Source: a virus. From it: 29,174 bases of DNA. Positions within the stretch are counted from its first letter, which is position 1, and each line of letters starts with the position of its first letter. The stretch is from IMG/VR virus record IMGVR_UViG_3300009164_000261, positions 1-29,174 of that record; one strand, given 5' to 3'. The translations under genes and the position numbers were made by a program. This document shows positions 1,822 through 27,576 of this stretch, in pieces. The notes under the pieces are model-generated. The model worked only from the letters and a program-made list of their open reading frames with translations. It did not search any database and had not been told where the DNA came from.

Positions 1822-2124
1822 ATGGCCGCAAGATATACTGATACTAGCCCATGGGCTAACACACCGATCACAAGAGATTATTTGGATATTTTTACAATAC
1901 GCTCTGTTAGTATTGCATCGGATGATTTTTTATACACTATACAACCGCAATACAATTTGAGACCCGACTTGTTGGCATTTGATCTATACGGTGATCCAGC
2001 GTTATGGTGGGTATTCACACAACGCAACATGGACATAATACAAGATCCGATATTTGATTTTGTTGCTGGCAAACAGATTTATATTCCAAAAAACAGTAGC
2101 TTATCAGAAATTTTAGGACTTTAA
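1822..2124 (+). CDS. gp53: Baseplate wedge protein gp53
   Basis: A 100-residue protein with the gp53/LysM-like core: YTIQPQYNLRPDLLAFDLYG, then DPALWWVFTQRNMD and FDFVAGKQIYIPK. In T4, gp53 joins neighbouring wedges around the hub, and its fold resembles a LysM peptidoglycan-binding domain. The protein is about half the length of T4 gp53 (~196 residues) and is essentially the core alone. The ATG lies 1 nt after the preceding stop, with AGGA at 1808-1811 inside the upstream gene. The next gene also starts 1 nt after its stop, so translation of the three genes is probably coupled. Confidence 0.85.
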   Translation: MAARYTDTSPWANTPITRDYLDIFTIRSVSIASDDFLYTIQPQYNLRPDLLAFDLYGDPALWWVFTQRNMDIIQDPIFDFVAGKQIYIPKNSSLSEILGL

Positions 2125-2125
2125 T

Positions 2126-4312: not shown

Positions 4313-4323
4313 GGTAATAATTA

Positions 4324-9300: not shown

Positions 9301-9794
9301 ATTTAATTAAATCTATAAGCGACGAAATTATATACCATCCTGTAAAATATAAAGTCCTTTTCGGAGCAAAAGCCGAAAAGAATTTACAAGCACAATTTAA
9401 AGTAATTATAAATTCATCAGTAGTAATTTCTGACAACGATGTTAAAACACAAATACTAGCGGCCATTAATAACTTTTTTGCACTGGGTAACTGGGAATTT
9501 GGAGATACGTTTTATTTTACAGAAATGGCCGCGTATGTTACAAGTCAACTTAGTCCTAACATAGTCAATTTTGTTATAGTGCCATCAGGTAGTACATTAT
9601 CGTTTGGCGGCCTATTTGAAATCACAGCAGGCCCTGACGAAATCTTTATAAGCGGTGCAACTATCGATAATATTGACATAGTTCCGTCCATTACATCTTC
9701 TCTCATCAATAGTTTAGGTAATATTACATTAAAATCAAATGCGGTAGCAATACAAGCATTAACAAGCTCAGCTTACGGATCGACAAATGTCTGA
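6312..9794 (+). CDS. gp6: Baseplate wedge protein gp6 (enlarged)
   Basis: A 1160-residue baseplate wedge protein; T4 gp6 is ~660 residues and forms the inner ring that links the six wedges. The N-terminus is typical of the family: DWRKVYQSFRNADFQSYDFE, then SEYLALIDLIAYLGQSIAFR and RENFLELADRRDSVLRLARM. The C-terminal part (about residues 990-1110) is a gp6/J-like region with ISDEIIYHPVKYKVLFGAKA, FALGNWEFGDTFYFTEMA and a GGLFEITAGPDEIFI segment. The extra length lies in the middle (about residues 430-960), beta-rich and with no motif I recognise. AGGA at 6302-6305 supports the ATG. The 3' end overlaps the next gene by 8 nt. Family assignment is firm; the role of the middle region is unknown. 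Confidence 0.88.
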   Translation: MSATDRQNRLLIAKDWRKVYQSFRNADFQSYDFENIRRSMIDYLRQNFPEDFNDYIESSEYLALIDLIAYLGQSIAFRVDLNARENFLELADRRDSVLRLARMLSYNAKRNQAANGLLKVVAVQSTQNILDSNGRNIANQIISWNDSSNANWYDQFIAVMNAAFPATQQFGNPSDSATVYSVPTEQYKFNGANTAVPIYSFSKTVNGSKMDFEVTSTTFVGQGYIYEEAPKIANRMACVYKNDGQGAASVNTGFFFNFVQGTLNQGNFTITQPSTNEIIELDSPNINDTDLWLYKVDQRGVESELWTPVPNLVGNNIIYNSLNKSIKNIYKAITRAGDRVALSFSDGIFGTLPLGTFNVYYRISNGLSYTINPQDIRGVTMTIPYYSNTGQQEQLTLTLSLQTSVDNSASTESNDTVKANAPATYYTQNRMITGEDYNISPLAVSQEIAKIKAVNRSSSGVSRYLDLIDPTGKYSKTNLFADDGILYQETYSTDLTFTYASKTDAQAIVYNTVFEILTDPNLRNFYYSKFTKISTTLLDIAWYNTVNDTNFSSGYFGSTTDAKPYLVSSYTTTALKYAGVGSLIKFEAPLSASGSLQVFDRTNNNALIPKTIPAKANTSSYIWAEIVSLIGDGTANGTGVLISGEGPVSLNDIIPTGAVATRVIPVWRTVIDKAVITTMIDLITSNLPFGLRFDINTQSWQIVFQSNLNSVDDFSLNKTGDTSNLLLDSSWLLLFVTDTVTYTITTRKLRYIFESDLQVRFYFDSTERVYDNVSGKLLTDSINILSINTQPGLAEPFTFDQNLKVVGQFIGLDGYIDTKKLVVTFSDKNNTGIVQDPETFDNVAMPASTSLLSSYYVVLEKYQVENGQEDYRYVSNANSTVVILPTQPKTFSQYANGQYFYFIDIDTVAKLNSVTSELTPSLDYRVFLGRADLKFQYTHNASDTHRIDPGVSNIMDVFVLTNGYDTLFRQWLNGVIASKPLPASSDELNNLISPKLNLIKSISDEIIYHPVKYKVLFGAKAEKNLQAQFKVIINSSVVISDNDVKTQILAAINNFFALGNWEFGDTFYFTEMAAYVTSQLSPNIVNFVIVPSGSTLSFGGLFEITAGPDEIFISGATIDNIDIVPSITSSLINSLGNITLKSNAVAIQALTSSAYGSTNV

Positions 9795-12700
9795 TAACAC
9801 AAATCCAACAGGTTCTAACAATTTTTCTACAGTAGATTTACTGCCTAAATATTATCGTACAGACGATAATAGAAAATTCATACAGGCAACAATAGATCAA
9901 TTAACACAAAAAGGTACGGCTAAAAAAGTAAACGGTTTCATAGGCCGTAAAAATGCTAAGTCGGCCAACGGCAAAGACATTTATATTAATGCCCCAACTA
10001 CAGTAAGACAAGATTATCAATTAGAACCAGCAGTGGTAGTAAATGATGTTACCGGCAATGTAGAATTTTTTAAAGATTATCAAGATTTTATTAATCAATT
10101 AAAAGTATTTGGCGGCAATGTTGATAATCACGAAAGATTAAATCGTCAAGAATTTTATAGTTGGGATCCACACATTGACTGGGATAAATTTATTAGCTTC
10201 CAACAATACTATTGGTTGCCTTACGGCCCTGATGTTATTAATATTGTTGGACAACAATTAAATGTTGTAAGCACTTTCAAAGTTGAACTTACAACAAGTG
10301 CAACACAACAAAAAGAATATTTGTTTACTCCTAACGGATTAGACAGAAATCCAGTGGTAACACTATATAGAGGACAAACATATTATTTTGAAATTAATAG
10401 TCCTGGAGAACCTTTTAGTATTAAAACAGCTAGAACTTTAGGTACATTGGATCGATATACTGACGAAGGTTATGTAAGTAAGTTTGGAGTTACAAACGGT
10501 ACAATTAAATTTACAGTTCCAATTTCTGGGCCAGACACACTATATTATGTAAGTGAACGTGATCCTAACTTAGGTTCTATTTTTAAATTTTTAGACATTA
10601 CCGAAAACACTTACATTAATCTTGAAACAGATTTAATAGGTAAGAAGACCTATACACTATCAAACGGCACTCCACTAAGCAACGGTATGAAAGTATCGTT
10701 TGGCGGTAATGTTACCCCTGCATCTTATACTTCAGGCGAATACTATGTGGAGGGCGTTGGCACAGCAATTACCCTGATTCCAACCACTATATTTGAAGTT
10801 ATTAGCACATACACAGAAGATCGATCTGTGGCATTTGACTCTACATTGTTTGATCAATATCCGTTTGCGGCCGCAAACTCATATGCCGGCAAGCAAGACT
10901 ATATTACAATTAATAAAGCAAGTAAGGATAGAAATCCATGGAGTCGATACAATCGTTGGTTCCATAAAGATACAATCAATGCCAGTGCGGCTTTTAATAA
11001 TAAACTTGCAGATTTTGATCAATCTAATCGTGCAACAAGACCTATTATTGAATTTAACCCAGATTTAAAACTTTTTAACTTTGGTGTAGTAGCAACAAAA
11101 GATGTCGATTTAGTTGATTCTTATACTAAGGATGTATTCAGTAACATTGAAGGTAAGGCCGGATATAACGTTGACGGTATTGATCTAGCGGCCGGCATGC
11201 GTGTTGTATTTGTTGCAGATACTGATGCACTAGTAAACAATAAAGTTTATAAAGTTACTTTTGTCAATATTGAAAATTCAGGAATTGGCGTACCTCAGAT
11301 ACGTTTAATACTTGACGAAAGTCCTGCAATAAATTCAAATATTTTAGTAAGACAAGGACAAATATACCAAGGTAAGACTTTCTGGTATAACGGAACAACT
11401 TGGGTATTGGGACAGCAAAAAACAACTGTAAATCAAGCGCCGTTATTTGACATGTTTGATGCTAATCAACAAAGTTTTTCATTGTATCCAGGTTCAAGAT
11501 TTGCTGGTAACAAGATATTTTCTTACAAGCTAGGAACAACTACAACCGACAGCATACTTGGATTTAGTTTAAGCTATCAGAATATTAACAACGTAGGCGA
11601 TATACTATTTTCGTTTAACTTAATATCGGATACTTTTGATTATAAAGAAAACGAAATATTAGTTACAAAGTCTGTTAACACTGGATTTTTATCTAAACTA
11701 GAATTTAATAATGATACTACTTACGTTAACGGTTGGCAAATCAGTAAGGTAACTCGTTACCAGCCGGGCGTTAGAATTTATAAAGATTCTGGATTAACAA
11801 ATAATTTTCCACTAGACATCTATGATAACAAAACAAATTTACTTGATTTAGAAGCCCGAGTATTTGTTAACGGAATTAGAATTGATTCTGCGGCATGGAC
11901 GTTAGTGGATGCTGTAAATTATAAACAGATTAAATTAGTTACTGATATAGCATTAACCGATGTACTAACAATCAAGGCATTTTCAGCACAACCGATTAAT
12001 GCTAACGGATTTTATGAAATTCCTATTAATTTACAAAATAATCCCTTAAACGTTGACATGAAAAATTTCACGTTAGGTGAAGTAGCTGACCATTTAAATT
12101 CAATAGTTGATAATATACAAGATGAGTTTGTAGGATTGGTCTCAGGATCAAATAATCTTAGAGACTTAGGTAATGTGACACCTTACGGTACAAAATTTGT
12201 ACAACACAGTGGCCCTGCTAGTCTAGCAGTATATCATATTGCCAGCGAGCAAAATAATATAATTCGAGCATTAGAAAAATCTAGAGATGACTATGGCAAA
12301 TTTAAACATAGTTTCTTGCTTGCGGCTCAAAATTTAGGAACTGATACAAATGTAGTTGCCCAAGTTGACTTACTACTTAAAAAATTAGTTTCAAATAAAA
12401 CAAAAAAATCATCTTACTATTTTAGTGATATGGTTCCATTTACAGGCAAAAAAGTTACAGAGTATACTATTGTAGATAATCGTATCAGAACATACCCATT
12501 AACAAATGTGTATAGTAATACTGAACTAAGTAATAAAGCAGTTTCTGTTTATCTTAACGGTATCCAACCACCGGAAGGCATACAATTACTATACGGTAAA
12601 GATTATACTTTTACAACAGACGGCTATGTATTAATTACTAACAATGTTGAATTGCTAGACGGCAATACTCTTACAATCTTTGAATATGATAGCACAGACG

Positions 12701-15700
12701 GATGTTTTATTCCACCTACTCCTACCAAGTTAGGACTATGGCCAAAGTTTGAACCTAAAATATATGTTGATTATAGTTTACTAACTCCGCGAACAATGAT
12801 ACAAGGTCATGACGGAAGCCAGACTTTGGCATACGGTGATTATCGTGACAACATTATTTTAGAATTAGAAAAACGAATTTATAATAATTTACAAATTCAA
12901 TACGACTCAACGATATTTGACATCTATGATATTATTCCAGGATATTATAGAAATAGTGATTATTCTCTAGACGAGATCAATCGAGTACTGGCGCCAGGAT
13001 TTTATAAGTGGGCAAATCTAGTAGGCCGAGATTTTTCTAAACAAGTAGGGTTTAATAAAGATAGCACATTTACATATAACTACAGAGGACACCCTTCACC
13101 GGATGGTAGAGAATTACCAGGTTACTGGCGCGGCATTTTTAGATGGGTATACGATACTGACAGACCAAATATCTGCCCATGGGAAATGCTTGGAATAAGC
13201 GAAGAACCAAGCTGGTGGCAACAACAATACGGCCCAGCACCTTATACAAGTAATAATACTATTATGTGGAAAGACTTGGAAGAAGGCGCAGTTAAAGAGC
13301 CTGGCATGCCTGTTGAATATCGAACACAATTTGCAAGACCTGATCTATTAAATCATTTGCCGGTTGACGAATCTGGAAACTTAGTTAGTCCGGTTAGTGC
13401 AAGATTAGCTAATGGTGTGTTTAGTACAGACAATCAAGGCAGTTATATATTTGGAGATGTTGCACCGGTCGAGTCTGCATGGCGCCGCAGTAGTTATTAT
13501 CCATTTAGTATATTAATTGCGGCAATGGTTTTAAAACCAGCACACACTCTTGCTACTTGTTTAGATAAATCTCGAACTGTCAGAAACTTGTGCGGACAAT
13601 TAGTTTATAAAGATACTGGATTGCATATTAAACCAAGTGATATTGTATTGCCTAGCATTTATTCTAGCAGTACTAGAGTATACACATCGGGTATTATCAA
13701 CTATCTAATTGAGTCTTTAATAACCACTAATGTTAATTACTATAACAACTATCAATATAATTTAGATAATCTAGATATTAAATTATCTTATAGAGTTAGT
13801 GGATTTACAAGTAAAGATAATTTTAATTTAATCTTAGATAGCAAAAATCCAGCATCTACTGGAAACGTGTTTGTTCCTCCAGAAAATTATAAAATATTTT
13901 ATAATAGTTCTAGCCCAATTGCTAAACTGTCATACAGTGGAATTATTATTACTAAGTTATCTGAGGGATATGAAATCAAAGGCTACAGCCTTTCTGAAGC
14001 ATTTTTTAAATATTTTCCTCCCCGCCAAGAACTTGGACCACGCATTAATGTAGGCGGTATTAGTGCCTCGTTCGTAAATTGGACTGCTGGTAAGACATAT
14101 TCAGTAGGGCAAAATGTATTTTACAATGGAAAATATTACAGAACTTTATACGCTGTAACTCCAAACGTTTTTGATGTAAAAGCATTTGCGGCGTTACCCG
14201 AGCTTCCAGTAACTGGAGGTGTGTCATCAGTATTTAGAAATGCTTGGGATTCCTCTAGTGTTAATATATTGCCTTACGGATCTGTATTATCAAATGTACA
14301 ACAAGTTGTTGATTTTATTTTAGGATACGGAGAATATTTAAAATCACAAGGATTTATATTTGAAGATTTTAATAATAATCTTGGTAATGTTACTAACTGG
14401 AGTACCACTGCTAAAGAATTTATGTTCTGGACTACACAAAAATGGAGTACAGGTCAGGATACATGGCAACAGTGGATTCCTAATCGAGCAGTGGGTCATG
14501 GAACTATTGTAAAATATCAAGATGTTTACTATCGAGCTTTACAAAATATTCCAGAACAACCTGCGTTCTTAGAAAATAATTATATTAAATTAGATGGATT
14601 AAACACGATCGGTAGTGCAGTAATAAGTTTAAGCCCTGCGGCTAATGCATTGTCATTTAGTTCAATATTATCGGTTGCAGAAGATATTAATAATCCGTTT
14701 AACGAATATGAAATTTATAAAGTAGACGGCAGTAGTTTGACTCCGTCAGATTTAAATTCAAATAGACAAGGCAACGTTGTTACATTTAGCCCAGACGATA
14801 ACGGAACAATATACAATGCTAGCTTTTATCTAGTTCAAAAAGAACAAATTCTAGTACTTGATAATTCTACAGTTTTTAATGATGTTATATACAATCCAGA
14901 AAGTGGGTATCGACAAGAGCGTATCAAAGTTGCTGGTTTTATTAGTAGTGAATGGTTTGGCGGCTTTGAAGTACCGGGCTTTATTTTTGATAGAGCAGAT
15001 GTTAAGCAATGGAGTTCTTGGACAGACTATGCATTAGGTGATATTGTGTCTTATCAAGGATATTATTATAGTGCTGTACGATTCTTGGCAGGTACTGACG
15101 AATTTGATTCCAATAACTGGATGCAAATTAAAAAACCTCAGCCAGCACTATTGCCAAACTGGAGCTATAAAGCTGGCCAGTTTGAAGATTTTTATAATTT
15201 AGATCAAGATAATTTTGATACAGGCCAACAAGTTATTGCACAGCATCTAGTTGGATATCAGAAGCGCCAGTATCTAAGTAATATCATTCAAGATAACATC
15301 AGTGAATTTCAATTTTATCAAGGTATGATAAAAGAAAAAGGAACACAAAACAGTCTTAATAAATTATTTGATGTGTTAAGTGCTGAAAATAAAGAAAGTT
15401 TAACATTTTACGAAGAATGGGGCATCCGTGTTGGCCAGTATGGCGCAAGCCAATCCTATGAAGCGGTTGAATTTTTAATTGAGCAACCAAACCTTACTAA
15501 AAATCCACAAGGATTTTATCTAACAATTCAACCCGAGGTTTCAACAAATTACAATGTTAATATTTCAGCTAATGATGTATATGTTAAACCTCGCGGATAT
15601 ACAGCCGACCCTTGGCCTGTTAATAATACACAAAAATTATTTTTAAGAACACCAGGATATGTCCAACCAACTGACCAAGTATATCAAATAAGTACCCTTG

Positions 15701-18700
15701 AAGAATTACTCGCTACCAGTGTTGCATCCTTTAATACTGGCATGTATATTTGGGTTACTTTTGAAAAAACAAGCTGGAACATTTATAGATTCTCTTCGTC
15801 TACAATCAAACCGTCAGATGCAATTTATAATAGTTCAAACAAAACAATCACAATTTTTTCAAATAACCAACTTGATTCAAGTTTGCTAGGACAATATGTT
15901 GCACTAAAACAAATTGCATTTGCTGGATTTTATAAAGTTGTTGATGTCAACTTACAAGATTTTACTATCGAAGCACCTTCATATAAACCTGGTGCAGAGT
16001 GGCCAACCGCCGAGACAATTGCGGCTAATTTAGAAATATTTAGATTATATTCAGTGCGAGCAGATTCGATTGATAATGCCAATGATATTATTAAATCATT
16101 TACTTCTCCTGGTGATAAAATTTGGATCGATAATGATTCGTCTAACAAATGGGCAGAATTAGAATTAAATTCTGTTTATACTAGTACTGAAATTAGAAAG
16201 CCATATCCTACTTCAGACATGGCGCACGGTCGAATAGTTGTTACAAATTTAGAAGGCACAGTTACCGCAGTATCTACTCAAGTTGGCGAAGTTATTGTTT
16301 ATAGCAAACAAGGTCCTCGCTGGATCTTTAAACAGATTATTAAACGTCCTTTCATGTCACAAAATGTCTTTGGTCAAAATCCAAATGCACTTGATACATT
16401 TGCTAACACTATGGCAATGAGTCCAGACGGAGAGTTTTTAGCAATTGGTAGTCCTCGAGTAGGCAATCTTGCTACTAAACAATTAGCTAACGGGAATGTA
16501 ATCTGTGATCCGTCAGCAACTAATTCTGTTAATTTACAAGCTGGAGCAGTAAGTTTATATCAAAAAACATCATATGATGAATACATTTTATTGTTTACAA
16601 TTGTAAGCGGGGATAATACTGCCAATCAACAATTTGGTTCTAGTTTAGCATTTGGCGACGGAAAATTGTTTATAGGCTCGATAGGGCCATCAAGTTCTGG
16701 AACACAAGCAACTGTATATCAATTGAAATATGTTGCAGTTAATGGAGTTGAATCAGTAGCATCTACTCTTAACGCAGACGGCGACGATGCTAACGCAATT
16801 GTTACAGTGACCTATGACGGCGGCATTGCATCAACAGTTAGCTCTACTAGCGATTTAATTTTTGATGGCGGCCCAGCATTACCTATTGAAACTACCGGAG
16901 ATCGTTGGTTATTAACCAAGCCTGGTATTAGTGTTGTTAATGGAACGTTATCTGGATTTGGCGCTGACATTAGTGTTACAAACGACAATGCAATCCTTGT
17001 AATTTCAGCACCATTGGCTGGAAACGTTTACATTTACTCGTTAGATGCAAATAACAATTATAATTTAATACAAACAGTTTCTGGACCAAGTCAGATAGTG
17101 TCTAATCCAACAACTATAAGTGGAGTATTCGCTTTCAACGGTGGCACATTATCTGGCGGTACTGGATTTAGAAACACAACTGATAAATTTCTTAGAACAA
17201 CAATATCATCAGTAACTACAACAGGCGGTAGTGGAACAGGATTATTAGTTGATGTTATTGTTACTAGTCAAGGAGTTTTGCAGACTGTAACAGTAAGAGA
17301 TCCGGGTAGAAACTACAAAGTAAATGATATTATTACTGTTGTTAATCCGTTAGGTACAGGTGGAGTGTTAGCACTAACCTGGGCTACTTCTACATATAAT
17401 TCTGGCGTTCAATATAAAATTGGAGATACTGTAATATATGGTGGAAATTATTATGTGGCAATTCTGGACACAATTAATAATTCTGTAACTAATGCAACAT
17501 ACTGGTCACCACTAACATTTGCAAATAGTACTACTGGTTCTAATATTGCTACCACTACAAATCGTTCAGGATCTGGTTTAACAGTTAAATTAGCACATAC
17601 TACGACCCCAGGATCATTATCTGGATCTATTATTATTCCAGTCCCTGGTATTAGAAATTTTGAAATAGGACAGCTAGTATTTTCGTCTACAGTGCCAACT
17701 GCGTTCGCTCCTAATACATATATTACCCAAGTCAATTCTGTAACTTATTCGGGTTCTGTTCAAAATAACATTTTAACTGTTAATAAGATTACTGCTGGAC
17801 TAAATCCAGTAGTTGCAGAAATTGTTGGATCTATAACTGAAAAAACTCTTACAATAGAGCAATTATCGGGCGCCAATATTATTCCTGGTATGCAATTAAG
17901 CGGCTTAGGAATCAACGGAGATTATACAATTGTTAGTGGTAGCGGAACTATCTGGACTATTTCAAACTCTGTTACAGTGTCAACACGTGAGATAACAGCT
18001 ACATTATACGAAACTATTCGGTCTGGCATGCAACTTGGTAATCCTGCACTTGATACTATTTCTACATTCACTGCTACTGTTACAACAAAAGGCACAGCAA
18101 ATCTAACTGGAGCAACAACTACAATAGTAGGTGGAGTTGCTACATTATACAACGCTAAGATTACTGGAATAACATTGACGTTCGATGCAGTTACTGGTGG
18201 TGATCCTGTAGTTCCAGGAATGATATTAACTGGATCAGGAGTTACTGCTGGTACTAAAATATTATACGGTTCTGGAACAATATGGACAGTTAATACTAGT
18301 CAAACTGTTGCCGGCCCTATAACTATCACAGCTACATTATCATCTGCTACTATTATTGGATTTATACTTTCGTTCTCGTCTACCTCTGGAGCAGTATTGG
18401 CCCCAGGCATGGTTTTATCAGGCGGCACTGTGCTTGCTGGCACAACAATCATTGGCGGTTCCGGAACATCGTGGACTGTTAGCCTTAGTCAAAATACTAC
18501 TTGTACTACTGCCACAGTACCTAACGGAATTATTTCTGGAAATATATTAACGTTTACAGCATCCAGCGGATCGCCGGTAGAAACTGGAATGGTATTAACA
18601 GGGGGTACGGTATTAGATGGAACTGTTATTACCGGAGGTGCTGGTACAACTTGGTACGTTAACATTAGTCAGTCAACTACTTGTACCCGAGCAACATCAC

Positions 18701-21700
18701 AAGCATTTTTATTAAACGCTCAAATTGACGGTACAACTCTTACATTTACTGATAATACAGGAATTGGGTTATTTGCTGGAATGGTCCTGAGCGGAACTGG
18801 TGTAGTTTCTGGAACTTATGTAGTATCTGGAGCAGATACAGAGTGGTTAATAAGTCCAAGTCAAACAGTAGTACCAACAACTATAACAGGAACTCCGGTA
18901 GTACTAACGGCAGGCACTCCGTCTGCTGGTTTAATATTATTAGGTCAACAACTATCGGGTAATGGAGTGACTTCTGGAACTGCTATTATTGCGGCTGGAT
19001 CTGGTACAGGCAAAGAAGGAACATATTATGTTACACCAGCGCAAACTGTAAATTCATTTGCGGCAACTTCTCGATACATTGTTAGTAATCCGGTAATTAT
19101 AGACGGCATTACAGTTACTGGAGCGGCAATTAGTGGAACTACATTGACATTTAGCGGACAGTCTGGAGGTAATGTTCAAATTGGTATGCTTGTAACTGGT
19201 AGTAATGTATTACCGGGAACAGCTATTCTTTCTGGATCGTCCGGAACTTGGCAGGTAAACATAAATCAATCGGTTACAAGTACTACGCTGTTATTAACTG
19301 GAACTGGCCGTGGCGGCATTGGAACGTATGTAGTTAATCAAGAATTAACTGTTGGATTAACTCCGACAGTTGCAAGCAGTTTAACTATCAATACTCCATT
19401 GTTGGCAACACTTACTGGTAGTGCAGAAGTCACTAGTTTAAAAATTAGCAATTCAGGTGTTAGCTATTCAGTGGGCGACACTATAACATTTAATAGAGGC
19501 GGCGGCCTAGTAACTATGTCGATCAGCACAGTAACTTCTAACGGATTTATAACAGTTTCTGTGGTTGGCGACGGAAGCGTTACAAAAGATTCTACACAAT
19601 TTGGTCAAAGCGTTGCAATCTCCAAGCACGGAGATTATGTTGCAATCAGTTCGCCTTTACAATCAGATATACAAGAAAACGAAGGCCGAGTATATATTTT
19701 AAGTAATAACTCTGTACTTGGAAATACTTATAGAGAATATCAACAAGTTTTAAATCCTCGTCAGCAGTCCGGAGATTTATTTGGTTATAATATTAAATTT
19801 GCAAACGATTATAAAACATTATTAATTTATAGTCCAGGAGCAGACTCATTTGACTTGACCACATTTGATGCGGCAGAAACTATATTTGATTCTGGATCAT
19901 TGTTATATAAAGAAATATCACAAAATTCTGGAAGAATTGATGTATATGATCGATATTCTAAAACTTGGATCTCTGGAGAATCTTTATACACTGGCGGATC
20001 AAACGCCGACGGGTTTGGTCAAAGTTTTGCGGCTTCAGATAGCATAATTTTAATTGGTGCTCCGCACGAAACAGAGATTTCAGAAAACATAAACGGATCT
20101 CCAATAACAGAAATTAATTCGGGTAAAGTTTATTCTTATGAAAAATCTGCCGGATCATTTAGTTGGACACCAGCACACCGACAAGCAGATTTAATTGATA
20201 TTAAAAAGATCAAACAAGCATTTTTATATAATAAGGTATCAAATAAGCTAGTTAGATACTTAGATATTATTGATCCAACACTTGGTAAGATTGCAGGCCC
20301 AGCCGAGCAAGAAATAAGTTACAAGACATTTTACGACCCGGCAATTTATACTGTTGGAACAAGTTCTGTAAATGTTGATATTGGCAACTCTTGGCAAAAT
20401 AAACAAGCTGGAAAATTATGGTGGGATTTACGCACGACTAAATTCATTGACAATCATTCTGAAAATTTAATTTATAGAAATAGCACATTAAACATGTTAG
20501 CTACTGGAGCAAGTGTTGATATTTACGAATGGGTAGAAACAAAGTTAACACCTGCAGAATGGAAAGTGCAAGCAGATACTGATGCAGGTCTTGTTGATAA
20601 CATTAGTGGAACACCGTTATATACTGATTGTTATAGTGTTAAACAATATTTTAATGCATTTAATAATGCATTTGAAAATACATATTATTTCTGGGTAAGA
20701 AATAAACGACTTACTCCTACTATTGCTGATAGAAAAATTTCGGCAAACTCTGTAGCACAATTAATTTCTAATCCTCGAGGACAAGGATACCCGTTCATTG
20801 CTTTAACTGGTAAAAATTCTTTTAGTTTAATAAACTGTCAAAATTTATTAGATGGTTTAGATGTTATATTAGGAGTAGAATACTGGATAACTGAACAGAC
20901 AGATCAGAACATCCACGCCCAATGGAAATTAATTGATAACAGTCCAAGTACAAAATTACCATCAGTAATAGAAGAAAAGTGGTTTGACAGTTTGTGCGGC
21001 AAAGATCAAGGAGATATGCCAGTTCCGGATCTAAACTTGCCAGCTAAGTTGCGTTACGGAATTGAAAGTAGACCACGTCAAGGAATGTTTGTTAATAATT
21101 TTGAAGCATTAAAACAATTCGTTGAACGTGTTAATTCAACATTAATTAAAGAACAAATAGTTGAACAAAGAAATATTTCTAAGTTGGAAAGCTATGATGC
21201 CGAACCGAAATTGTTTACAGGAGTATTTGATACTACAGTTGATACTGATGCAGAATTAAGAGTAGTTTCAGTATCTACCGCTAAATCAGCAGTCATGTCT
21301 CCAGTAATTGTTAATGGTAGCATTGTTGATGTTATAATACAATCAGCAGGATCTGGGTACAAGAGTTCGCCAACTATAACTATTAACGGTTCTGGATTTG
21401 GTGCTAAATTAAAAGCAATAATTAATATTGCCGGAGCAATTATAGGCGCTGAAATCATTTCAAAAGGAAAAGGATATACTAGTTCTACTACACTAGAAGT
21501 ACGTCCGTTCTCAGCATTAGTTAGATCAGATTCTGTGGCCAACGGTAATTGGAGCATTTATGCTTATGTTACATCTGCAATAACTGGTACGCAGTCTTGG
21601 GTACGTGTCAAAACACAATCTTATGATGTTCGTAATTACTGGAGTAAAGTAGATTGGTATGCTACTGGTTTTAATCAATTTAGTATTATTGATTTTGCTG

Positions 21701-24700
21701 TAGATGTTTTTGCTGAACTAGGTACAGTTGACCCGGACATTGGACAAACAGTTAAAGTTAGAATGTCTGGCTCTAATGGCTGGCAATTATTGCTGTGCTA
21801 TTCTAAATCTACAAGTATTGATTGGACACAGCGATATCAAGTTATTGGTATTGAAAATGGAACCTTACAATTAAGTTCTAAACTGTATAGTTTTGTCAAT
21901 AATAATATAGGCTATGATAGTTCAATTTATGATAATACAGGTTACGATTATACTGCAAGTAAGGAATTAAGAGTAATCTTAAATTCTCTTAAAGATGATA
22001 TTTTAATTGATACATTAAAATCAGAATATTTAAATTTATTCTTCTCTAGTGTACGATATGCACATACTGAACAGACTTATATTGATTGGGCATTTAAAAC
22101 AAGTTTTGTAAAAGCACAACATAATGTTGGCAAATTAAAACAAACAATCACTTATACAAATGACAATTTGGCAAACTTCCAAGACTATATTTCTGAAGTT
22201 ATTCCATACAGAACAACTGTAAGAGAATTTGTAAGCAACTACACAGCGGTAGATAGTAGTTCTTCTGTAATTACAGACTTTGATCTTCCAGCAACATTTG
22301 GAACTGGCAACGGTAATGTAATTAAAACTTATGTTAAAGACGGAAAAATTATAGCTGACAGATCAGAAATACAAACATATCCTTGGAAACATTGGTTATT
22401 AAATGCAGGGTTTCAAATAACTTCTATCGTAATAATTGATAACGGATCGGGTTACGTTACTGCACCAACTGTTAGGATTATTAGTGATAGTGGAAAAGGA
22501 GCAGTTGCACAAGCGTTTATTGCCAATGGTAAAGTTAATAGAATATTGTTAGTATCATCAGGAAGCGGATACTTGTCAGCTCCTACTATTATTATTGACG
22601 GCGGCTCTTCTGCTAGCGGAACTACTGCAAAAGCAATTGCAATTATTGGCAAGAGTAATGTTAGATCAAGTTTTATCAAGATGAAGTTTGATAGAACCAC
22701 CAACACATACTATACAATTCAGTTAAATGAAACACAAACATTTACTGGCACTGGCAATAAAACTACTTTTACGTTAGTATGGGCACCAGATGTAAAAATT
22801 GGCCAAAGCACTGTTAAAGTTGATAATGCCATTGTACTTAGAGACAATTATACATTAACGACTGTTAAATCAGCTACAAAAGGATATACAACTTATAGCG
22901 GAGTTATAACTTTAAAAACAGCCCCGGCCATAGGTACAAAAATTACAGTTGAATATTTGAAAGACATTGACCTATTAAATGCCAGCGATAGAATACAATA
23001 TTATTATAATCCAACAACTGGACAACTGGGAAAATCATTAGACCAACTAATGACTGGAGTTGATTACGGCGGAGTGATTGTCACAGGACTTGATTACAGT
23101 GTAAGTCGAGGTTGGAATAGTGTTGGGTTTATGCAAGACTTGTGGGATTCGTACGAAAATACATATAATGATTATGCAGTAACAATTAGTAACGAAACAG
23201 TAGTAAGTCGCACGTTTACACTTCCATATATACCTGAAGTGTTTACCAATGTTAACGTTTATTATTCTGCAATATACAATACGTCTTTCACGTCGGATGG
23301 AGCACAACTAATATACACACTTCCTTCAGCATATACATTTGTTGATGCTATTCAAGTTCAACTAGATAAGACAGTTGCTGGTTTGACTTTAAATGTAACT
23401 TCTACTTCAACAGAGCGAATCACAGTTACTCAGCTTGTTACAGGTTTTAATTATCTTAAAACTACATCTACAGTAAATTTAAGCATTGGTAAAGCTATTA
23501 AGATTATATCAGGAAGTTTTGGCGGATTTATTACAAATCAAACTTATTATGTTAACGAAATCATTGACTTGACTACATTTAAAGTCGGATCAAGTGTCGG
23601 CGGCTCAGAGTTTACCGTTGCAGGTGGACTAGGTAGTATGATTATACAATACGCAACTAGTAGCAACTATCTTACTGCTCCAACAGCATCGCTATTTCCA
23701 GGATTAGCCTTCCAATTTAAAGGAACTGTATTTGGCGGGTTTTCACGGGACGTTACTTATTATGTAAAAGATATAGTATCATCAACCTTGTTTACAGTAA
23801 GTGCAACCATTGGTGGATCAGTATATCCAGTAAGCTCTGCCCAAGGTATAATGCCGTTAAGTCAAGTAGCGGCCGCACCTGCCGCTACTGTAAATTTAAA
23901 CAATATAACTGGTTTAAAAATAGGGGATGTGGCAACTTGTAATATTACAGGCTCAATTGCTGACGGAACATCTATACAAAAAATTCTAACTGCTACTAAT
24001 CAAGTAGTATTAACTAACATTTTATACGGTGATATTTTAGCAGGAACAGAAATTAATTTTATTAGAACATTAACAGCTCCAGTTGATTATAGATACTTGA
24101 CAAATGTATCTTTACAATTATCTGAACCGCCTGTGGCTGGCGCAACAATTAATGTTACTTCTAGTTTTGATCCTGTTAGAATTGATGATGAAAATTTTGA
24201 TAAACAGTGGGTTATTACTAAAACAGAAGCTGGTACTAATATTATAACTACTATAACTCCAATAACATTTAATGTTGGAGATTCTATTGGATTTAGTGGA
24301 ACATTATTTGGCAATATACAACCTGCTACTACATATTACGTTAAAGAAATATTAACAAATAGAACTTTTAAAATATCAGCAACATCATCAGGCCCTGAGT
24401 ATGTATTATTATCTGCAACAGGTTCAATGATAGGAAGAAGTACAGGTAATGCAAATGCAGTAATGGCCACGTATGTAGCAGACGGAACTGAACCAATTAT
24501 TACAATACCAAATACATATACATTAGTATCGGGCGATGTTATTATATTCCGCAAGAGTACTAGCGATGGCGCAATTTCTGTTAATGAAAATGATTATGAT
24601 ACTGCTCTTGACGGTGGAGCATTAGAATATAATTCTGCTACTGGTTTAAATCCTGACGAAATTATTGTTGACGGTGATGGTTTCGTAACAACAGACACTA

Positions 24701-27576
24701 GCGGTGCACCAGAAGAAGTGGTACCGGGACAAGTTGTAGACAGTGTTGCAATTAAAGTATTTGACAGACCGAGCGATGGATCTGCTACGGTAAAAGTATT
24801 AAATTATATTGCAGACGGAGTTAATAAGAAATTTAATCTAGAACAATTTCCAAATAGCCAAGATGCAGTTTATATCAAATTAAATTCTACAGTACTGACC
24901 ACGGGTACCGATTATTATCTTGACTATCCTAACAAACAAGTAATCTTAAGAAATGTACCTGCTAAAGGTAGTATAGTTACTTTACATAGTTTTGGATTCA
25001 ACGGAACTAACATTTTAGATGCTGATTATTTTGTTGCAGATGGAAAAACAAAAGAATTTATCACTAAAGCTCCTTATGTAGACACAGATTTTAATTATCT
25101 TGTTTATCTTGACGGTATAGCAATCAGCCCAACATTGTTTAAAACTGACAATACATACGATAGTCCAAACAGAATTGGTTTTAGATTCAGTATTGCGCCG
25201 ACTAAATTTCAAACTTTAAATTATCTAATAGTATTGGGAAATCAACAGACTTATGCAATATTTAAAAATGAAAAACTAGCAACTAACGGTAGTTCAACAT
25301 ATACATTATCGAATACTATTGGATCAAGTGTCCCATTAGAGACTAGTGTGTTGATTCGTGCTAACCAGCAAATTTTGCAAGGTCCTAAGACATCATATTT
25401 TACAATTGCTGGAAATCAATATACCTACACGTTAGATAGATTATCAGTACAACCCTATAGTGTTAATACAGCGGACCTTATTGTATACGCTGATGGAGTT
25501 TTATTAGAACTATCTACAGATTATACTGTAGATACTTCAGAAGTAAGTATTTCAATTAATAGAAAAGTATATAGTAAGTACAAAACAAAACGATTGATTA
25601 TAAATGTTAAATCAGCACAAGATTACTATATCGTTGGCAATACAATTACATTTAGTCAACCATACGGTTTATCTGATTATGTTGAAGTAGTATCTGCATA
25701 CAAGCACGATATTTTACAGATACAACGTACACGAACAACTGCAACTAGCAATTTACAATTTAGTTCAGCTAGTGCCGATTATTATAGATATGTTGGAGTA
25801 TTAGGCGGCAAGATAGAATTGCCATCAACTATTTTAACAGAACCGCAACTATGGGTTACAAAAAATAAACTATTATTAATTAATGGAGTTGATTATCGAG
25901 TAAATCCAGATTTATCTAGCATCACATTAGATACTCCTCCTGGAATTAATGATGAATTTGAAGCAATTATTTTTGCCGGCGAATCAGTTAAAGCCGGTAT
26001 AAGCTATATGCAATTTAAAGATATGCTAAACAGAACAGTTTATAAACGTTTAAATCTTTATAAACAAAATGAATTAGTGCAAGATCTCTACTACTATGAT
26101 AAAGAAATTTTTGTAAAAGATGCTGGTAATTTTGATAAACCTAATCCTGCAATTAATAAACCGGGTGTTGTTGAAATCAACGGTGAGCGTATTGAATATT
26201 TTACAATTAAAAATAATACTACACTTGGACAGTTGCGCCGAGGTACATTAGGAACTGGTATTCCTACAGTGCATGGTACTGGGTCAAAGGTACAAGATAT
26301 TGGGCCTAGCGAAACCATTCCTTATGTTGATACGTTTAAAACAGAACAAATTACAATTGATAATTACACAACAAAATTAATTATTCCACTAAGTTTTGTT
26401 CCTAGTAAAACAACAAGTTCGTGGTCAGCTACTCCTAGTAGCCTTAAATTATTTGATAATGCAGTAATACAAAAATTTGTTAGCAAAACAGGTACAGGTC
26501 CATACTTAGTAACCTTTGCAGTTCCTCAGCAAAACTATACACCTGCGCTTAACAAATATTTGCTAATTTCTAATAACAGTAACACTAACTACAATGGATA
26601 TCATACAGTATCTTCGTCAAACATATCTAATAGTATTACAATAGTTCCAACATCGGTAAACGCATTTGTAACAGTTGGTAGTGCAATCGATGTGACATTT
26701 ATAATTCCTATACAAACAACTGCGCCAACTACAGGAATTTACTATATTATTTCAGGCTCAACTCCTATAGAATATAATGGTGCATGGCTATGTTCTGCTA
26801 GTACAACAACAAGTATTACGTTGACTATATCTAATAATTATGGAATATTTAAAGTACTGCCAGGTTCAATTCAATCAACACATACAATTACTGTATCATA
26901 TGATACTGACCCTGGAGTTTATAGTACAAAACTAATAACTACAATATCAGCATCGACGTACGGAGAAGCAGATGAAATAGAAGTGTTTGTTGGCGGATAC
27001 GATACATCTACAGTATGGGAACCAAATACAATTTTTGATGTAGATCAAATTTTAACAGTTAACAGTTACACTTATAGGGTTACTACTAAACATAGAAGCG
27101 GCACAACATTTAATAGTGCGGTATCTACATTAGATAGTGACAACTTGATTATTTCAACAGGAGTACCTGCAACTACTGTACGTACATTCTTTGTTGGTAA
27201 TACTCGTTTAAAGAAAAGTCCTTACTCTGTTTATAATGTAGAAAAGGCACCTGCAAGCCCAGAAGGCGATGTTAGTTTCAATGCGGATTTTGCAGTCGAT
27301 GGTATTAATAAAGAACTAATATTAACTAATAAACTTACTACTGGTACGGTAGTAACAATTATACGAAAATTTGGACAAGCATGGACAGTTAATAATGAAT
27401 CATTGCAAACTAGTCAAACTAAGATTGCTAAGTTTATTACAGCAGTTCCTGGAGTATGGGTAACAAGTAACCGTATTACAAGTACACAAACCGGTTTAAC
27501 AACCGCAACAACAACATTTGATAACGTTACTAAATCGTTTGATAATGATGATACAACATTCGATCAAGGAAATTAA
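9787..27576 (+). CDS. Giant baseplate-associated virion protein, 5929 residues (possibly gp7-like)
   Basis: A single uninterrupted frame of 5929 codons. Residues 1-~140 (LLPKYYRTDDNRKF, IGRKNAKS, YSWDPHIDWDKFISFQQYYW) and later blocks (PWEMLGISEEPSWWQQQYGP near 1132; HNVGKLKQTITYTNDNLANF near 4117) resemble, from memory, large structural proteins downstream of gp6 in marine T4-like phages. Position suggests a wedge protein, perhaps replacing gp7, but I see no proven T4 equivalent. In order there are: the N-terminal module; three CBM5/12-like modules (1432-1778); propeller blades (~2160-2438); a ~825-residue insertion with a fourth CBM-like module and ~60-residue repeats; further blades (~3265-3460); GSGY repeats; three ~48-residue FGG-type repeats (4567-4881); several 'VNGV..DY' beta-domains; a conserved LGQLRRGTLGTG block (~5485); and a C-terminus ending KSFDNDDTTFDQGN. 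The start overlaps gp6 by 8 nt and has only a weak CGGA upstream, so translational coupling is likely. Role in host contact is inference. Confidence 0.8.
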   Translation: MSDNTNPTGSNNFSTVDLLPKYYRTDDNRKFIQATIDQLTQKGTAKKVNGFIGRKNAKSANGKDIYINAPTTVRQDYQLEPAVVVNDVTGNVEFFKDYQDFINQLKVFGGNVDNHERLNRQEFYSWDPHIDWDKFISFQQYYWLPYGPDVINIVGQQLNVVSTFKVELTTSATQQKEYLFTPNGLDRNPVVTLYRGQTYYFEINSPGEPFSIKTARTLGTLDRYTDEGYVSKFGVTNGTIKFTVPISGPDTLYYVSERDPNLGSIFKFLDITENTYINLETDLIGKKTYTLSNGTPLSNGMKVSFGGNVTPASYTSGEYYVEGVGTAITLIPTTIFEVISTYTEDRSVAFDSTLFDQYPFAAANSYAGKQDYITINKASKDRNPWSRYNRWFHKDTINASAAFNNKLADFDQSNRATRPIIEFNPDLKLFNFGVVATKDVDLVDSYTKDVFSNIEGKAGYNVDGIDLAAGMRVVFVADTDALVNNKVYKVTFVNIENSGIGVPQIRLILDESPAINSNILVRQGQIYQGKTFWYNGTTWVLGQQKTTVNQAPLFDMFDANQQSFSLYPGSRFAGNKIFSYKLGTTTTDSILGFSLSYQNINNVGDILFSFNLISDTFDYKENEILVTKSVNTGFLSKLEFNNDTTYVNGWQISKVTRYQPGVRIYKDSGLTNNFPLDIYDNKTNLLDLEARVFVNGIRIDSAAWTLVDAVNYKQIKLVTDIALTDVLTIKAFSAQPINANGFYEIPINLQNNPLNVDMKNFTLGEVADHLNSIVDNIQDEFVGLVSGSNNLRDLGNVTPYGTKFVQHSGPASLAVYHIASEQNNIIRALEKSRDDYGKFKHSFLLAAQNLGTDTNVVAQVDLLLKKLVSNKTKKSSYYFSDMVPFTGKKVTEYTIVDNRIRTYPLTNVYSNTELSNKAVSVYLNGIQPPEGIQLLYGKDYTFTTDGYVLITNNVELLDGNTLTIFEYDSTDGCFIPPTPTKLGLWPKFEPKIYVDYSLLTPRTMIQGHDGSQTLAYGDYRDNIILELEKRIYNNLQIQYDSTIFDIYDIIPGYYRNSDYSLDEINRVLAPGFYKWANLVGRDFSKQVGFNKDSTFTYNYRGHPSPDGRELPGYWRGIFRWVYDTDRPNICPWEMLGISEEPSWWQQQYGPAPYTSNNTIMWKDLEEGAVKEPGMPVEYRTQFARPDLLNHLPVDESGNLVSPVSARLANGVFSTDNQGSYIFGDVAPVESAWRRSSYYPFSILIAAMVLKPAHTLATCLDKSRTVRNLCGQLVYKDTGLHIKPSDIVLPSIYSSSTRVYTSGIINYLIESLITTNVNYYNNYQYNLDNLDIKLSYRVSGFTSKDNFNLILDSKNPASTGNVFVPPENYKIFYNSSSPIAKLSYSGIIITKLSEGYEIKGYSLSEAFFKYFPPRQELGPRINVGGISASFVNWTAGKTYSVGQNVFYNGKYYRTLYAVTPNVFDVKAFAALPELPVTGGVSSVFRNAWDSSSVNILPYGSVLSNVQQVVDFILGYGEYLKSQGFIFEDFNNNLGNVTNWSTTAKEFMFWTTQKWSTGQDTWQQWIPNRAVGHGTIVKYQDVYYRALQNIPEQPAFLENNYIKLDGLNTIGSAVISLSPAANALSFSSILSVAEDINNPFNEYEIYKVDGSSLTPSDLNSNRQGNVVTFSPDDNGTIYNASFYLVQKEQILVLDNSTVFNDVIYNPESGYRQERIKVAGFISSEWFGGFEVPGFIFDRADVKQWSSWTDYALGDIVSYQGYYYSAVRFLAGTDEFDSNNWMQIKKPQPALLPNWSYKAGQFEDFYNLDQDNFDTGQQVIAQHLVGYQKRQYLSNIIQDNISEFQFYQGMIKEKGTQNSLNKLFDVLSAENKESLTFYEEWGIRVGQYGASQSYEAVEFLIEQPNLTKNPQGFYLTIQPEVSTNYNVNISANDVYVKPRGYTADPWPVNNTQKLFLRTPGYVQPTDQVYQISTLEELLATSVASFNTGMYIWVTFEKTSWNIYRFSSSTIKPSDAIYNSSNKTITIFSNNQLDSSLLGQYVALKQIAFAGFYKVVDVNLQDFTIEAPSYKPGAEWPTAETIAANLEIFRLYSVRADSIDNANDIIKSFTSPGDKIWIDNDSSNKWAELELNSVYTSTEIRKPYPTSDMAHGRIVVTNLEGTVTAVSTQVGEVIVYSKQGPRWIFKQIIKRPFMSQNVFGQNPNALDTFANTMAMSPDGEFLAIGSPRVGNLATKQLANGNVICDPSATNSVNLQAGAVSLYQKTSYDEYILLFTIVSGDNTANQQFGSSLAFGDGKLFIGSIGPSSSGTQATVYQLKYVAVNGVESVASTLNADGDDANAIVTVTYDGGIASTVSSTSDLIFDGGPALPIETTGDRWLLTKPGISVVNGTLSGFGADISVTNDNAILVISAPLAGNVYIYSLDANNNYNLIQTVSGPSQIVSNPTTISGVFAFNGGTLSGGTGFRNTTDKFLRTTISSVTTTGGSGTGLLVDVIVTSQGVLQTVTVRDPGRNYKVNDIITVVNPLGTGGVLALTWATSTYNSGVQYKIGDTVIYGGNYYVAILDTINNSVTNATYWSPLTFANSTTGSNIATTTNRSGSGLTVKLAHTTTPGSLSGSIIIPVPGIRNFEIGQLVFSSTVPTAFAPNTYITQVNSVTYSGSVQNNILTVNKITAGLNPVVAEIVGSITEKTLTIEQLSGANIIPGMQLSGLGINGDYTIVSGSGTIWTISNSVTVSTREITATLYETIRSGMQLGNPALDTISTFTATVTTKGTANLTGATTTIVGGVATLYNAKITGITLTFDAVTGGDPVVPGMILTGSGVTAGTKILYGSGTIWTVNTSQTVAGPITITATLSSATIIGFILSFSSTSGAVLAPGMVLSGGTVLAGTTIIGGSGTSWTVSLSQNTTCTTATVPNGIISGNILTFTASSGSPVETGMVLTGGTVLDGTVITGGAGTTWYVNISQSTTCTRATSQAFLLNAQIDGTTLTFTDNTGIGLFAGMVLSGTGVVSGTYVVSGADTEWLISPSQTVVPTTITGTPVVLTAGTPSAGLILLGQQLSGNGVTSGTAIIAAGSGTGKEGTYYVTPAQTVNSFAATSRYIVSNPVIIDGITVTGAAISGTTLTFSGQSGGNVQIGMLVTGSNVLPGTAILSGSSGTWQVNINQSVTSTTLLLTGTGRGGIGTYVVNQELTVGLTPTVASSLTINTPLLATLTGSAEVTSLKISNSGVSYSVGDTITFNRGGGLVTMSISTVTSNGFITVSVVGDGSVTKDSTQFGQSVAISKHGDYVAISSPLQSDIQENEGRVYILSNNSVLGNTYREYQQVLNPRQQSGDLFGYNIKFANDYKTLLIYSPGADSFDLTTFDAAETIFDSGSLLYKEISQNSGRIDVYDRYSKTWISGESLYTGGSNADGFGQSFAASDSIILIGAPHETEISENINGSPITEINSGKVYSYEKSAGSFSWTPAHRQADLIDIKKIKQAFLYNKVSNKLVRYLDIIDPTLGKIAGPAEQEISYKTFYDPAIYTVGTSSVNVDIGNSWQNKQAGKLWWDLRTTKFIDNHSENLIYRNSTLNMLATGASVDIYEWVETKLTPAEWKVQADTDAGLVDNISGTPLYTDCYSVKQYFNAFNNAFENTYYFWVRNKRLTPTIADRKISANSVAQLISNPRGQGYPFIALTGKNSFSLINCQNLLDGLDVILGVEYWITEQTDQNIHAQWKLIDNSPSTKLPSVIEEKWFDSLCGKDQGDMPVPDLNLPAKLRYGIESRPRQGMFVNNFEALKQFVERVNSTLIKEQIVEQRNISKLESYDAEPKLFTGVFDTTVDTDAELRVVSVSTAKSAVMSPVIVNGSIVDVIIQSAGSGYKSSPTITINGSGFGAKLKAIINIAGAIIGAEIISKGKGYTSSTTLEVRPFSALVRSDSVANGNWSIYAYVTSAITGTQSWVRVKTQSYDVRNYWSKVDWYATGFNQFSIIDFAVDVFAELGTVDPDIGQTVKVRMSGSNGWQLLLCYSKSTSIDWTQRYQVIGIENGTLQLSSKLYSFVNNNIGYDSSIYDNTGYDYTASKELRVILNSLKDDILIDTLKSEYLNLFFSSVRYAHTEQTYIDWAFKTSFVKAQHNVGKLKQTITYTNDNLANFQDYISEVIPYRTTVREFVSNYTAVDSSSSVITDFDLPATFGTGNGNVIKTYVKDGKIIADRSEIQTYPWKHWLLNAGFQITSIVIIDNGSGYVTAPTVRIISDSGKGAVAQAFIANGKVNRILLVSSGSGYLSAPTIIIDGGSSASGTTAKAIAIIGKSNVRSSFIKMKFDRTTNTYYTIQLNETQTFTGTGNKTTFTLVWAPDVKIGQSTVKVDNAIVLRDNYTLTTVKSATKGYTTYSGVITLKTAPAIGTKITVEYLKDIDLLNASDRIQYYYNPTTGQLGKSLDQLMTGVDYGGVIVTGLDYSVSRGWNSVGFMQDLWDSYENTYNDYAVTISNETVVSRTFTLPYIPEVFTNVNVYYSAIYNTSFTSDGAQLIYTLPSAYTFVDAIQVQLDKTVAGLTLNVTSTSTERITVTQLVTGFNYLKTTSTVNLSIGKAIKIISGSFGGFITNQTYYVNEIIDLTTFKVGSSVGGSEFTVAGGLGSMIIQYATSSNYLTAPTASLFPGLAFQFKGTVFGGFSRDVTYYVKDIVSSTLFTVSATIGGSVYPVSSAQGIMPLSQVAAAPAATVNLNNITGLKIGDVATCNITGSIADGTSIQKILTATNQVVLTNILYGDILAGTEINFIRTLTAPVDYRYLTNVSLQLSEPPVAGATINVTSSFDPVRIDDENFDKQWVITKTEAGTNIITTITPITFNVGDSIGFSGTLFGNIQPATTYYVKEILTNRTFKISATSSGPEYVLLSATGSMIGRSTGNANAVMATYVADGTEPIITIPNTYTLVSGDVIIFRKSTSDGAISVNENDYDTALDGGALEYNSATGLNPDEIIVDGDGFVTTDTSGAPEEVVPGQVVDSVAIKVFDRPSDGSATVKVLNYIADGVNKKFNLEQFPNSQDAVYIKLNSTVLTTGTDYYLDYPNKQVILRNVPAKGSIVTLHSFGFNGTNILDADYFVADGKTKEFITKAPYVDTDFNYLVYLDGIAISPTLFKTDNTYDSPNRIGFRFSIAPTKFQTLNYLIVLGNQQTYAIFKNEKLATNGSSTYTLSNTIGSSVPLETSVLIRANQQILQGPKTSYFTIAGNQYTYTLDRLSVQPYSVNTADLIVYADGVLLELSTDYTVDTSEVSISINRKVYSKYKTKRLIINVKSAQDYYIVGNTITFSQPYGLSDYVEVVSAYKHDILQIQRTRTTATSNLQFSSASADYYRYVGVLGGKIELPSTILTEPQLWVTKNKLLLINGVDYRVNPDLSSITLDTPPGINDEFEAIIFAGESVKAGISYMQFKDMLNRTVYKRLNLYKQNELVQDLYYYDKEIFVKDAGNFDKPNPAINKPGVVEINGERIEYFTIKNNTTLGQLRRGTLGTGIPTVHGTGSKVQDIGPSETIPYVDTFKTEQITIDNYTTKLIIPLSFVPSKTTSSWSATPSSLKLFDNAVIQKFVSKTGTGPYLVTFAVPQQNYTPALNKYLLISNNSNTNYNGYHTVSSSNISNSITIVPTSVNAFVTVGSAIDVTFIIPIQTTAPTTGIYYIISGSTPIEYNGAWLCSASTTTSITLTISNNYGIFKVLPGSIQSTHTITVSYDTDPGVYSTKLITTISASTYGEADEIEVFVGGYDTSTVWEPNTIFDVDQILTVNSYTYRVTTKHRSGTTFNSAVSTLDSDNLIISTGVPATTVRTFFVGNTRLKKSPYSVYNVEKAPASPEGDVSFNADFAVDGINKELILTNKLTTGTVVTIIRKFGQAWTVNNESLQTSQTKIAKFITAVPGVWVTSNRITSTQTGLTTATTTFDNVTKSFDNDDTTFDQGN
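16264..17100 (+). other. FG-GAP-like beta-propeller, first half (giant protein)
   Basis: Residues ~2160-2438 contain successive propeller-type units: GEVIVYSKQGPRWIFKQI; TMAMSPDGEFLAIGSPRVG ... AGAVSLYQK; QQFGSSLAFGDGKLFIGSIG ... ATVYQLK; and GFGADISVTNDNAILVISAP ... GNVYIYSLD. Each has the FG/S..A...DG..L.IG.P motif followed 15-40 residues later by a G.V.(I/L)Y strand, as in FG-GAP/integrin-like repeats. The series stops after IYSLD and resumes about 830 residues later with the same motifs. Confidence 0.6.
17206..17370 (+). repeat. GSGY-type beta repeat, copy upstream of the ~60-residue repeats
   Basis: Residues ~2474-2528 follow the pattern 'GGSGTGLLVDVIVTSQGVLQ, TVTVRDPGRNYKVNDIITV', a variant of the phage virion repeat with V.(V)..(G).GY...(D)..TV. 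A shorter related copy (SLKISNSGVSYSVGDTITF) occurs at 19432-19506, on the far side of the ~60-residue repeats, so the two bracket that array. Confidence 0.45.
17812..19302 (+). repeat. Run of seven ~60-residue protein repeats (giant protein)
   Basis: Seven units can be laid over each other, at about 17812-18009, 18151-18339, 18340-18519, 18520-18699, 18712-18891, 18892-19071 and 19108-19302. The common pattern is I.G..LTF...SG..(V).PGM.LSG.GV..GT.I..GSGT.WTVN.SQT(V)..T.(IT). Units four and five (by start 18340 and 18520) are most alike: MVLSGGTVLAGTTIIGGSGT against MVLTGGTVLDGTVITGGAGT, both ending SQ(N/S)TTCT. A divergent copy precedes them at 17611-17800. At the DNA level the copies differ widely, so the array is old and held at protein level. 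Similar repeats occur in many phage tail proteins of uncultured viruses. Confidence 0.75.
19579..20166 (+). other. FG-GAP-like beta-propeller, second half (giant protein)
   Basis: Residues ~3265-3460 resume the propeller motifs: QFGQSVAISKHGDYVAISSP ... GRVYILS; DLFGYNIKFANDYKTLLIYSP ... GRIDVYDRYS; and DGFGQSFAASDSIILIGAP ... SGKVYSYEK. With the four units before the insertion this would give about seven blades, the usual number for such a ring. The count is by eye; the closing strand could come from either end. Confidence 0.6.
21262..21501 (+). repeat. GSGY-type beta repeats, tandem pair (giant protein)
   Basis: Residues 3826-3905 hold two units of the virion repeat V..G.(I)..V.(I)..(A)GSGY.S.PT(I)TI.G.G.GA: one with SIVDVIIQSAGSGYKSSPTI and one with IIGAEIISKGKGYTSSTTLE. 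A second pair lies about 900 nt downstream. Such repeats are common in phage structural proteins; no function is assigned. Confidence 0.55.
22414..22650 (+). repeat. GSGY-type beta repeats, second tandem pair (giant protein)
   Basis: Residues 4210-4288 carry ITSIVIIDNGSGYVTAPTVR and VNRILLVSSGSGYLSAPTII, with a GKGAVAQAFIANG strand between them. This is the same family as the pair at 21262-21501, and closer to its consensus. Confidence 0.6.
23485..24429 (+). repeat. Three ~48-residue FGG...TYYV repeats (giant protein)
   Basis: Copies lie at 23485-23640 (GSFGGFITNQTYYVNEII ... GGLGSM), 23701-23853 (GTVFGGFSRDVTYYVKDIV ... SAQGIM) and 24274-24429 (GTLFGNIQPATTYYVKEIL ... SATGSM). Each runs (G)..FGG(I)....TYYV.(E/D)I.....F.(V/I)S...GG......(A).G.M. 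Copies one and two are about 60 nt apart, and the third follows after ~420 nt that encode other beta-domains. Function unknown; a stalk or spacer role is likely. Confidence 0.7.

Follow-up and report, generated by a model that had tools for sequence, protein, structure and literature searches.

Tail fibres are the textbook site at which phages exchange the parts that contact the host. Insertions into propellers have been described for other proteins. The alpha-I domain of integrins is inserted between blades 2 and 3; it was gained once in a clade and has been kept since (PMC10659397). Among phage nozzles, that of SU10 is described as a seven-bladed propeller in which four Ig-like domains separate blade 2 from blade 3 and from whose blade 1 a fibre-dock loop extends (PMC9509320), and the tip of the T7 gp12 nozzle is described as leaving from blade 3 (PMC6702177).

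The window analysed here is the complete stretch of 29,174 nucleotides from an uncultured large phage (IMG/VR record IMGVR_UViG_3300009164_000261, positions 1–29,174). An initial annotation, made from the letters alone, had reported a beta-propeller split by about 825 residues of other modules, and this was borne out: Four blades (residues 2146–2433, nucleotides 16222–17085) are followed by approximately 830 amino acids of other material and then by three further blades (residues 3264–3470, nucleotides 19576–20196). Probably, the protein concerned, a putative baseplate component, contains one ring with an 830-residue arm of modules in the D4–A5 linker (between blades 4 and 5), the closed scaffold displaying modules from several loops.

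The giant protein and its genomic setting

The propeller lies within an open reading frame of 5,929 codons (ORF call, nucleotides 9787–27576, plus strand, as are all features below), whose product, 5,929 amino acids long, is a giant virion structural protein. Typing of the neighbouring genes with PHROGs and Pfam revealed a T4-like baseplate operon with gp53-, gp25-, and gp6-like genes upstream of this frame and a gp9/10-like gene downstream. The gene, following gp6 and preceding the gp9/10-like gene, is thus found in the position of the T4 gp7-like wedge component. The protein matched the virion structural protein family phrog_10938 with E values of 3.8e-234 and 3e-69, most conserved regions being covered. 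Homologues from this family sit directly after gp6 in PA5oct, Atu_ph07, RaK2, 121Q, SCTP-2, and Vibrio phage 2.275.O, so that family and gene position of, for example, RaK2 ORF070, 121Q gp582, PA5oct gp355, and Atu_ph07 gp180 are the same as in the window; the record of PA5oct gp355 carries an ESI-MS/MS mark on the product. At the sequence-profile level, two profiles of regions of the giant protein (A6 and A7) matched no solved baseplate protein. We infer a place near gp6, at the baseplate periphery.

The members from cultured phages share conserved N-terminal and post-propeller regions with the window protein. The conserved region after the propeller starts at residue 3471 (nucleotides 20197–22400) and is also present in cultured jumbo phages without the propeller. 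Unlike the window, the six cultured phages examined (L083–L088) contain no recognisable propeller at the equivalent of window residues ~1908–3470, and a tblastn search for the ring in cultured phages gave no match. Because the propeller is missing at that position in these six phages, the plug-ins are nested in a module that is itself optional. The same position is occupied by a short stretch in RaK2 and 121Q, by many GSGY units in Atu_ph07, and by a possibly lectin-like stretch in SCTP-2 (inspection only).

Two halves of one ring

With the region after the propeller as query, 80 relatives were collected. Uninterrupted propellers and other inserts, for both of which a comparison of relatives had been proposed, were found among them: The two halves abut in many, with nothing between them in L006, L011, L033, and others. 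Alignment of the relatives' propellers gave seven blades of four strands each. The D4–A5 linker consists of a few residues in the compact L033 (LAQTISGTDTRFGQSIAIT), as compared with LIQTVSG...DSTQFGQSVAIS in the window. A ring profile made solely from relatives with uninterrupted propellers was then run against the window protein, and matched both an N-terminal piece (residues 2147–2435, E 1e-51) and a C-terminal piece (E 7e-57), the propeller part of which ends at residue 3468, the match also straying into the repeats of the insert. Two alignments (A2 and A3) were excluded because the C3–D3 modules or blade 4 of relatives fell on the insert repeats or on blade 5. The Pfam family FG-GAP_2 (PF14312) was detected above its curated cut-off in the C-terminal half (E 3.5e-9, 37.1 bits versus 23); of 39 relatives, 26 had a match with E≤0.01.

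From the alignment to the relatives' ring, the blades ahead of the insert were assigned as follows: blade 1 to residues 2146–2190 (nucleotides 16222–16356), blade 2, with a short B2–C2 loop in the window, to residues 2205–2276 (16399–16614), and blade 3, with an extension of about 55 amino acids in its C3–D3 loop, to residues 2281–2388 (16627–16950). This extension (residues 2317–2371) differs from the GTGF-type module found there in most relatives. Blade 4 comprises residues 2391–2433 (16957–17085). After the insert follow blade 5 (residues 3264–3331, nucleotides 19576–19779, also supported by the window model), blade 6 (residues 3332–3409, 19780–20013), and blade 7 (residues 3410–3470, 20014–20196).

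Structures were predicted for a relative and for the window. L014, with five occupied loops, was predicted as a single seven-bladed ring (pLDDT 80.6, pTM 0.75), and its best solved match over the whole length was the alpha head of integrin alphaM/beta2 (Z 26.4, 332 residues, 3.1 Å), WD40 propellers scoring nearly as well. The window model spans residues 2271–3470 (blades 3–7 and the insert, without blades 1 and 2) and is of low overall confidence (pLDDT 58.7, pTM 0.37). Each of the top 50 structure entries listed for it was nonetheless an integrin alpha head, the highest-scoring one with Z 22.7 (263 residues, 3.1 Å), in alignments covering both flanks of the insert. Foldseek by itself gave low TM-scores for a multi-domain model, which VIA-align resolved. 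Seven four-stranded blades in one ring are therefore complete in the model of L014, and blades 3–7 are modelled for the window. Given the uninterrupted relatives and predicted structures that match a single integrin-type propeller, both halves in the window are assigned to one predicted seven-bladed propeller of the FG-GAP type, in agreement with the earlier supposition that four blades and three would make one ring.

The insert between blades 4 and 5

The insert itself (nucleotides 17086–19575, 830 amino acids) is absent from the compact relatives and present in L001–L005, L017, and L026. The arm had been placed inside a blade loop, which did not hold: In the window model, all four strands of blade 4 (residues 2395–2397, 2403–2408, 2413–2419, and 2425–2432, mostly with pLDDT of 85 or more) are complete ahead of the insert, strand D4 ends at residue 2432, and the strands of blade 5 begin at about residue 3276, so that the junction lies between two whole blades.

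The composition that had been read from the sequence (a CBM-like module, GSGY units, and seven repeats of about 60 residues) was confirmed by profiles and sequence. A first GSGY-type module (residues 2440–2532, nucleotides 17105–17382) stands at the start of the insert, and is followed by the CBM5/12-like module (residues 2534–2584, 17386–17538), seven ~60-residue repeats of the type GM.LSG.G...GT (residues 2683–3173, 17833–19305, by repeat profile), and a second GSGY-type module at the end (residues 3208–3262, 19408–19572). The number of repeats corresponds to seven profile matches in the 82%-identical copies of L001/L017, the coordinates of L001 having been mapped onto the window. Against Pfam CBM_5_12, the window module remained below threshold (E 0.042, 14.3 bits versus a cut-off of 26.2; best E among the relatives 1.7e-4), whereas a profile of the relatives' B2–C2 modules matched residues 2536–2584 with E 3.5e-7 (one-sequence search). 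That profile also matched three further places in the window protein.

Related material was observed elsewhere in the giant protein. Further CBM5/12-like modules lie upstream of the propeller at residues 1431–1458, 1571–1609, and 1741–1764 (nucleotides ~14077–15078), and residues ~3820–5040, after the propeller, contain more GSGY-like and FGG..YYV-like modules that by eye resemble the B2–C2 plug-ins of relatives.

The modules of the insert are small and all-beta. They may bind carbohydrates or the host surface, for which the CBM5/12 match, below its curated cut-off, is a lead. A scan with the window insert as query gave no hits beyond the two most closely related contigs. In profile comparison, the window repeats matched the C3–D3 module of relatives weakly (93% probability over 32 columns), and the D6–A7 and D1–A2 modules gave no match to the window insert in profile comparison. 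The G+C content of the insert is slightly elevated (0.36–0.43 versus 0.31–0.39), a difference too small to argue for recent import, and a tandem repeat search for recent DNA duplication found none, a single 18-bp repeat excepted.

Insertion sites around the ring

Inserts of at least 25 amino acids were counted and assigned to ring positions in 52 distinct relatives and in 46 further distinct propellers from a second scan, the positions being unreliable in the very divergent rows L064, L066, L071, L074, and L078. The used loops in both sets taken together are D1–A2, B2–C2, B3–C3, C3–D3, B4–C4, C4–D4, D4–A5, B6–C6, D6–A7, and B7–C7. About ten loops thus take modules while the ring persists, and D4–A5 is one of them, not the main site. 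The busiest is B2–C2, which is occupied in 31 of 52 and 33 of 46 propellers and shows eight changes on the conserved-region tree. A 65-residue insert of L014/L024 had been a candidate for D4–A5 and was rejected, because the L014 model places it at C4–D4.

Eight of the ten used sites are B–C or D–A loops, and two lie on the other face (Fisher one-sided p 0.015, in a test that counts sites instead of independent events and for which loop borders were in part drawn by our own reading). The topology of a four-stranded meander would put the B–C and D–A loops on one face, and most plug-ins would accordingly project to the same side.

Module types recur at several sites. By inspection, GSGY modules were seen at D1–A2, at B2–C2, and in the D4–A5 insert of the window, and the CBM5/12-like type is the commonest plug-in at B2–C2; the location of the CBM-like module differs between relatives (B2–C2) and window (D4–A5). 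Separately, a module of about 57 amino acids (AGSFVxGxTYTILSLGTTDFTxIGAS) occurs at D6–A7 of L008, L014, L021, L024, L025, L030, and L069, at B2–C2 of L027, and at B6–C6 of L006; the copy in L014 was modelled with pLDDT<50.

The earlier notion of a plug-in site at which modules are exchanged on a scaffold was largely right, in that inserts are gained and lost on a persisting ring, but has to be broadened from one site to about ten.

History of the D4–A5 insert

The D4–A5 insert was also found in five other distinct lineages on separate contigs (L001/L017, L002/L003, L004, L005, and L026). On the tree, the window-type insert requires a single gain (one change) in the clade formed by the window, L001, L002, L004, L005, and L026. 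Within this clade, insert and ring have diverged at similar rates, with identities of 82/62/59/45% for the insert as compared with 83/60/59/61% for the N-terminal half. The insert of L005 is devoid of the CBM-like module and carries a different module nested in its first GSGY unit, and that of L026 retains weak similarity only. The reading of the L005 insert as unrelated to that of the window was ruled out by the 45% identity together with the module swap. On these sequence comparisons, the arm of the window clade appears to have been gained once and then inherited, diverging with the ring. A rapid exchange of modules is not what this history points to, although internal turnover of modules did take place in L005 and L026.

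A second, separate lineage provides a pair of filled and empty sites. L159 carries 142 amino acids at D4–A5, and L073 carries none. The two DNAs align collinearly along 14.5 kb (67–78% identity), and L159 differs by a clean 426-nt insert (L159:6587–7012), the empty counterpart of which lies near position 8428 of L073. This insert consists of two repeats of the window's ~60-residue type (E 3.7e-13) and is flanked on both sides by ACAGGTACTG. Such flanks are a hint of short-repeat recombination, for which one case is no proof.

Proposed function and alternatives

We tentatively propose, with a little less than even confidence, that the propeller serves as a plug-board in the baseplate of large myoviruses: a rigid, optional propeller would offer about ten loops to one shared pool of modules (CBM5/12-like, GSGY, and ~60-residue repeats), which would be nested and moved by recombination at short repeats, so that host contact would be re-tooled on an unchanged scaffold. 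In the more probable reading given at the outset, each insert would enter and leave through neighbouring strands and thereby keep the fold of the ring; the closed ring would display differing modules from several loops; and the arm would contact the host surface during adsorption, probably glycans. The modules would spread by recombination at short repeats.

A serious competitor, to which we give somewhat less than even probability, is that the modules act as structural spacers or as contacts between baseplate subunits, like the SU10 nozzle domains that rearrange on attachment. In SU10, the four Ig-like domains that follow blade 2 of the seven-bladed propeller are described as forming the nozzle and touching their neighbours (PMC9509320), and the bulk of the window insert is made up of repeats in which Pfam found no known ligand-binding signature. 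However, the prevalence of CBM5/12-like modules at B2–C2 (seen by inspection) speaks against it, and the insert content differs strongly among relatives, which is less expected for a fixed contact.

Largely neutral drift, by which permissive surface loops would take up beta-modules from a repeat pool common to phages with no selection for new targets, is less likely, even if the many loops in use, the nesting of modules within modules, and the near-equal divergence of insert and ring in the window clade agree with it: An 830-residue insert that has stayed open in frame in six lineages implies that selection retains it. Closure of each half as its own small propeller, or its joining of another oligomeric ring, is very improbable; that four and three blades could in principle assemble otherwise is all that favours it, and it is contradicted by the uninterrupted seven-blade relatives and by the models of L014 and the window, each of which matches a single integrin ring. 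A chimera of metagenome assembly, conceivable for an assembled contig of uncultured origin, has a negligible probability, because the filled junction recurs at 34–89% identity in the five other lineages on their separate contigs.

Comparison with known systems

The plug-board reading has its nearest parallels in integrins and nozzles. The integrin alpha head, the best solved structural match of both the L014 and the window models, likewise is a seven-bladed FG-GAP propeller in which a domain occupies the linker joining two whole blades. In contrast to the window, integrins insert one vWA domain of ~200 amino acids between blades 2 and 3; in the window, the linker from blade 4 to blade 5 holds ~830 amino acids of small tandem modules, and its relatives fill other loops. 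The calcium motif DxDxDG of integrins was not matched in window residues 2146–2433 or 3264–3470, and the window carries no vWA-type insert after blade 2. Among viral structures, the L014 ring was best matched by the YHYH-domain protein A0A6J5L0K2 from an uncultured Caudovirales phage (E 2.5e-22, 28% identity).

The nozzles of SU10 and T7 resemble the window in being seven-bladed propellers of phage tails. They differ as parts of short-tailed phages with fixed inserts in single phages, and the passages on them do not describe a family-wide turnover at multiple sites. With filled and empty sites catalogued, it can be tested directly whether baseplate modules, and not only fibres, participate in adsorption, and the same catalogue shows where propellers accept large inserts in nature. 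Insertion into a propeller was already known; what is new, as far as the literature found shows, is that a single baseplate ring takes inserts at many of its loops and that the modules recur. Within a conserved baseplate protein, the propeller here behaves at many loops as fibres do, in an architecture that resembles that of animal integrins.
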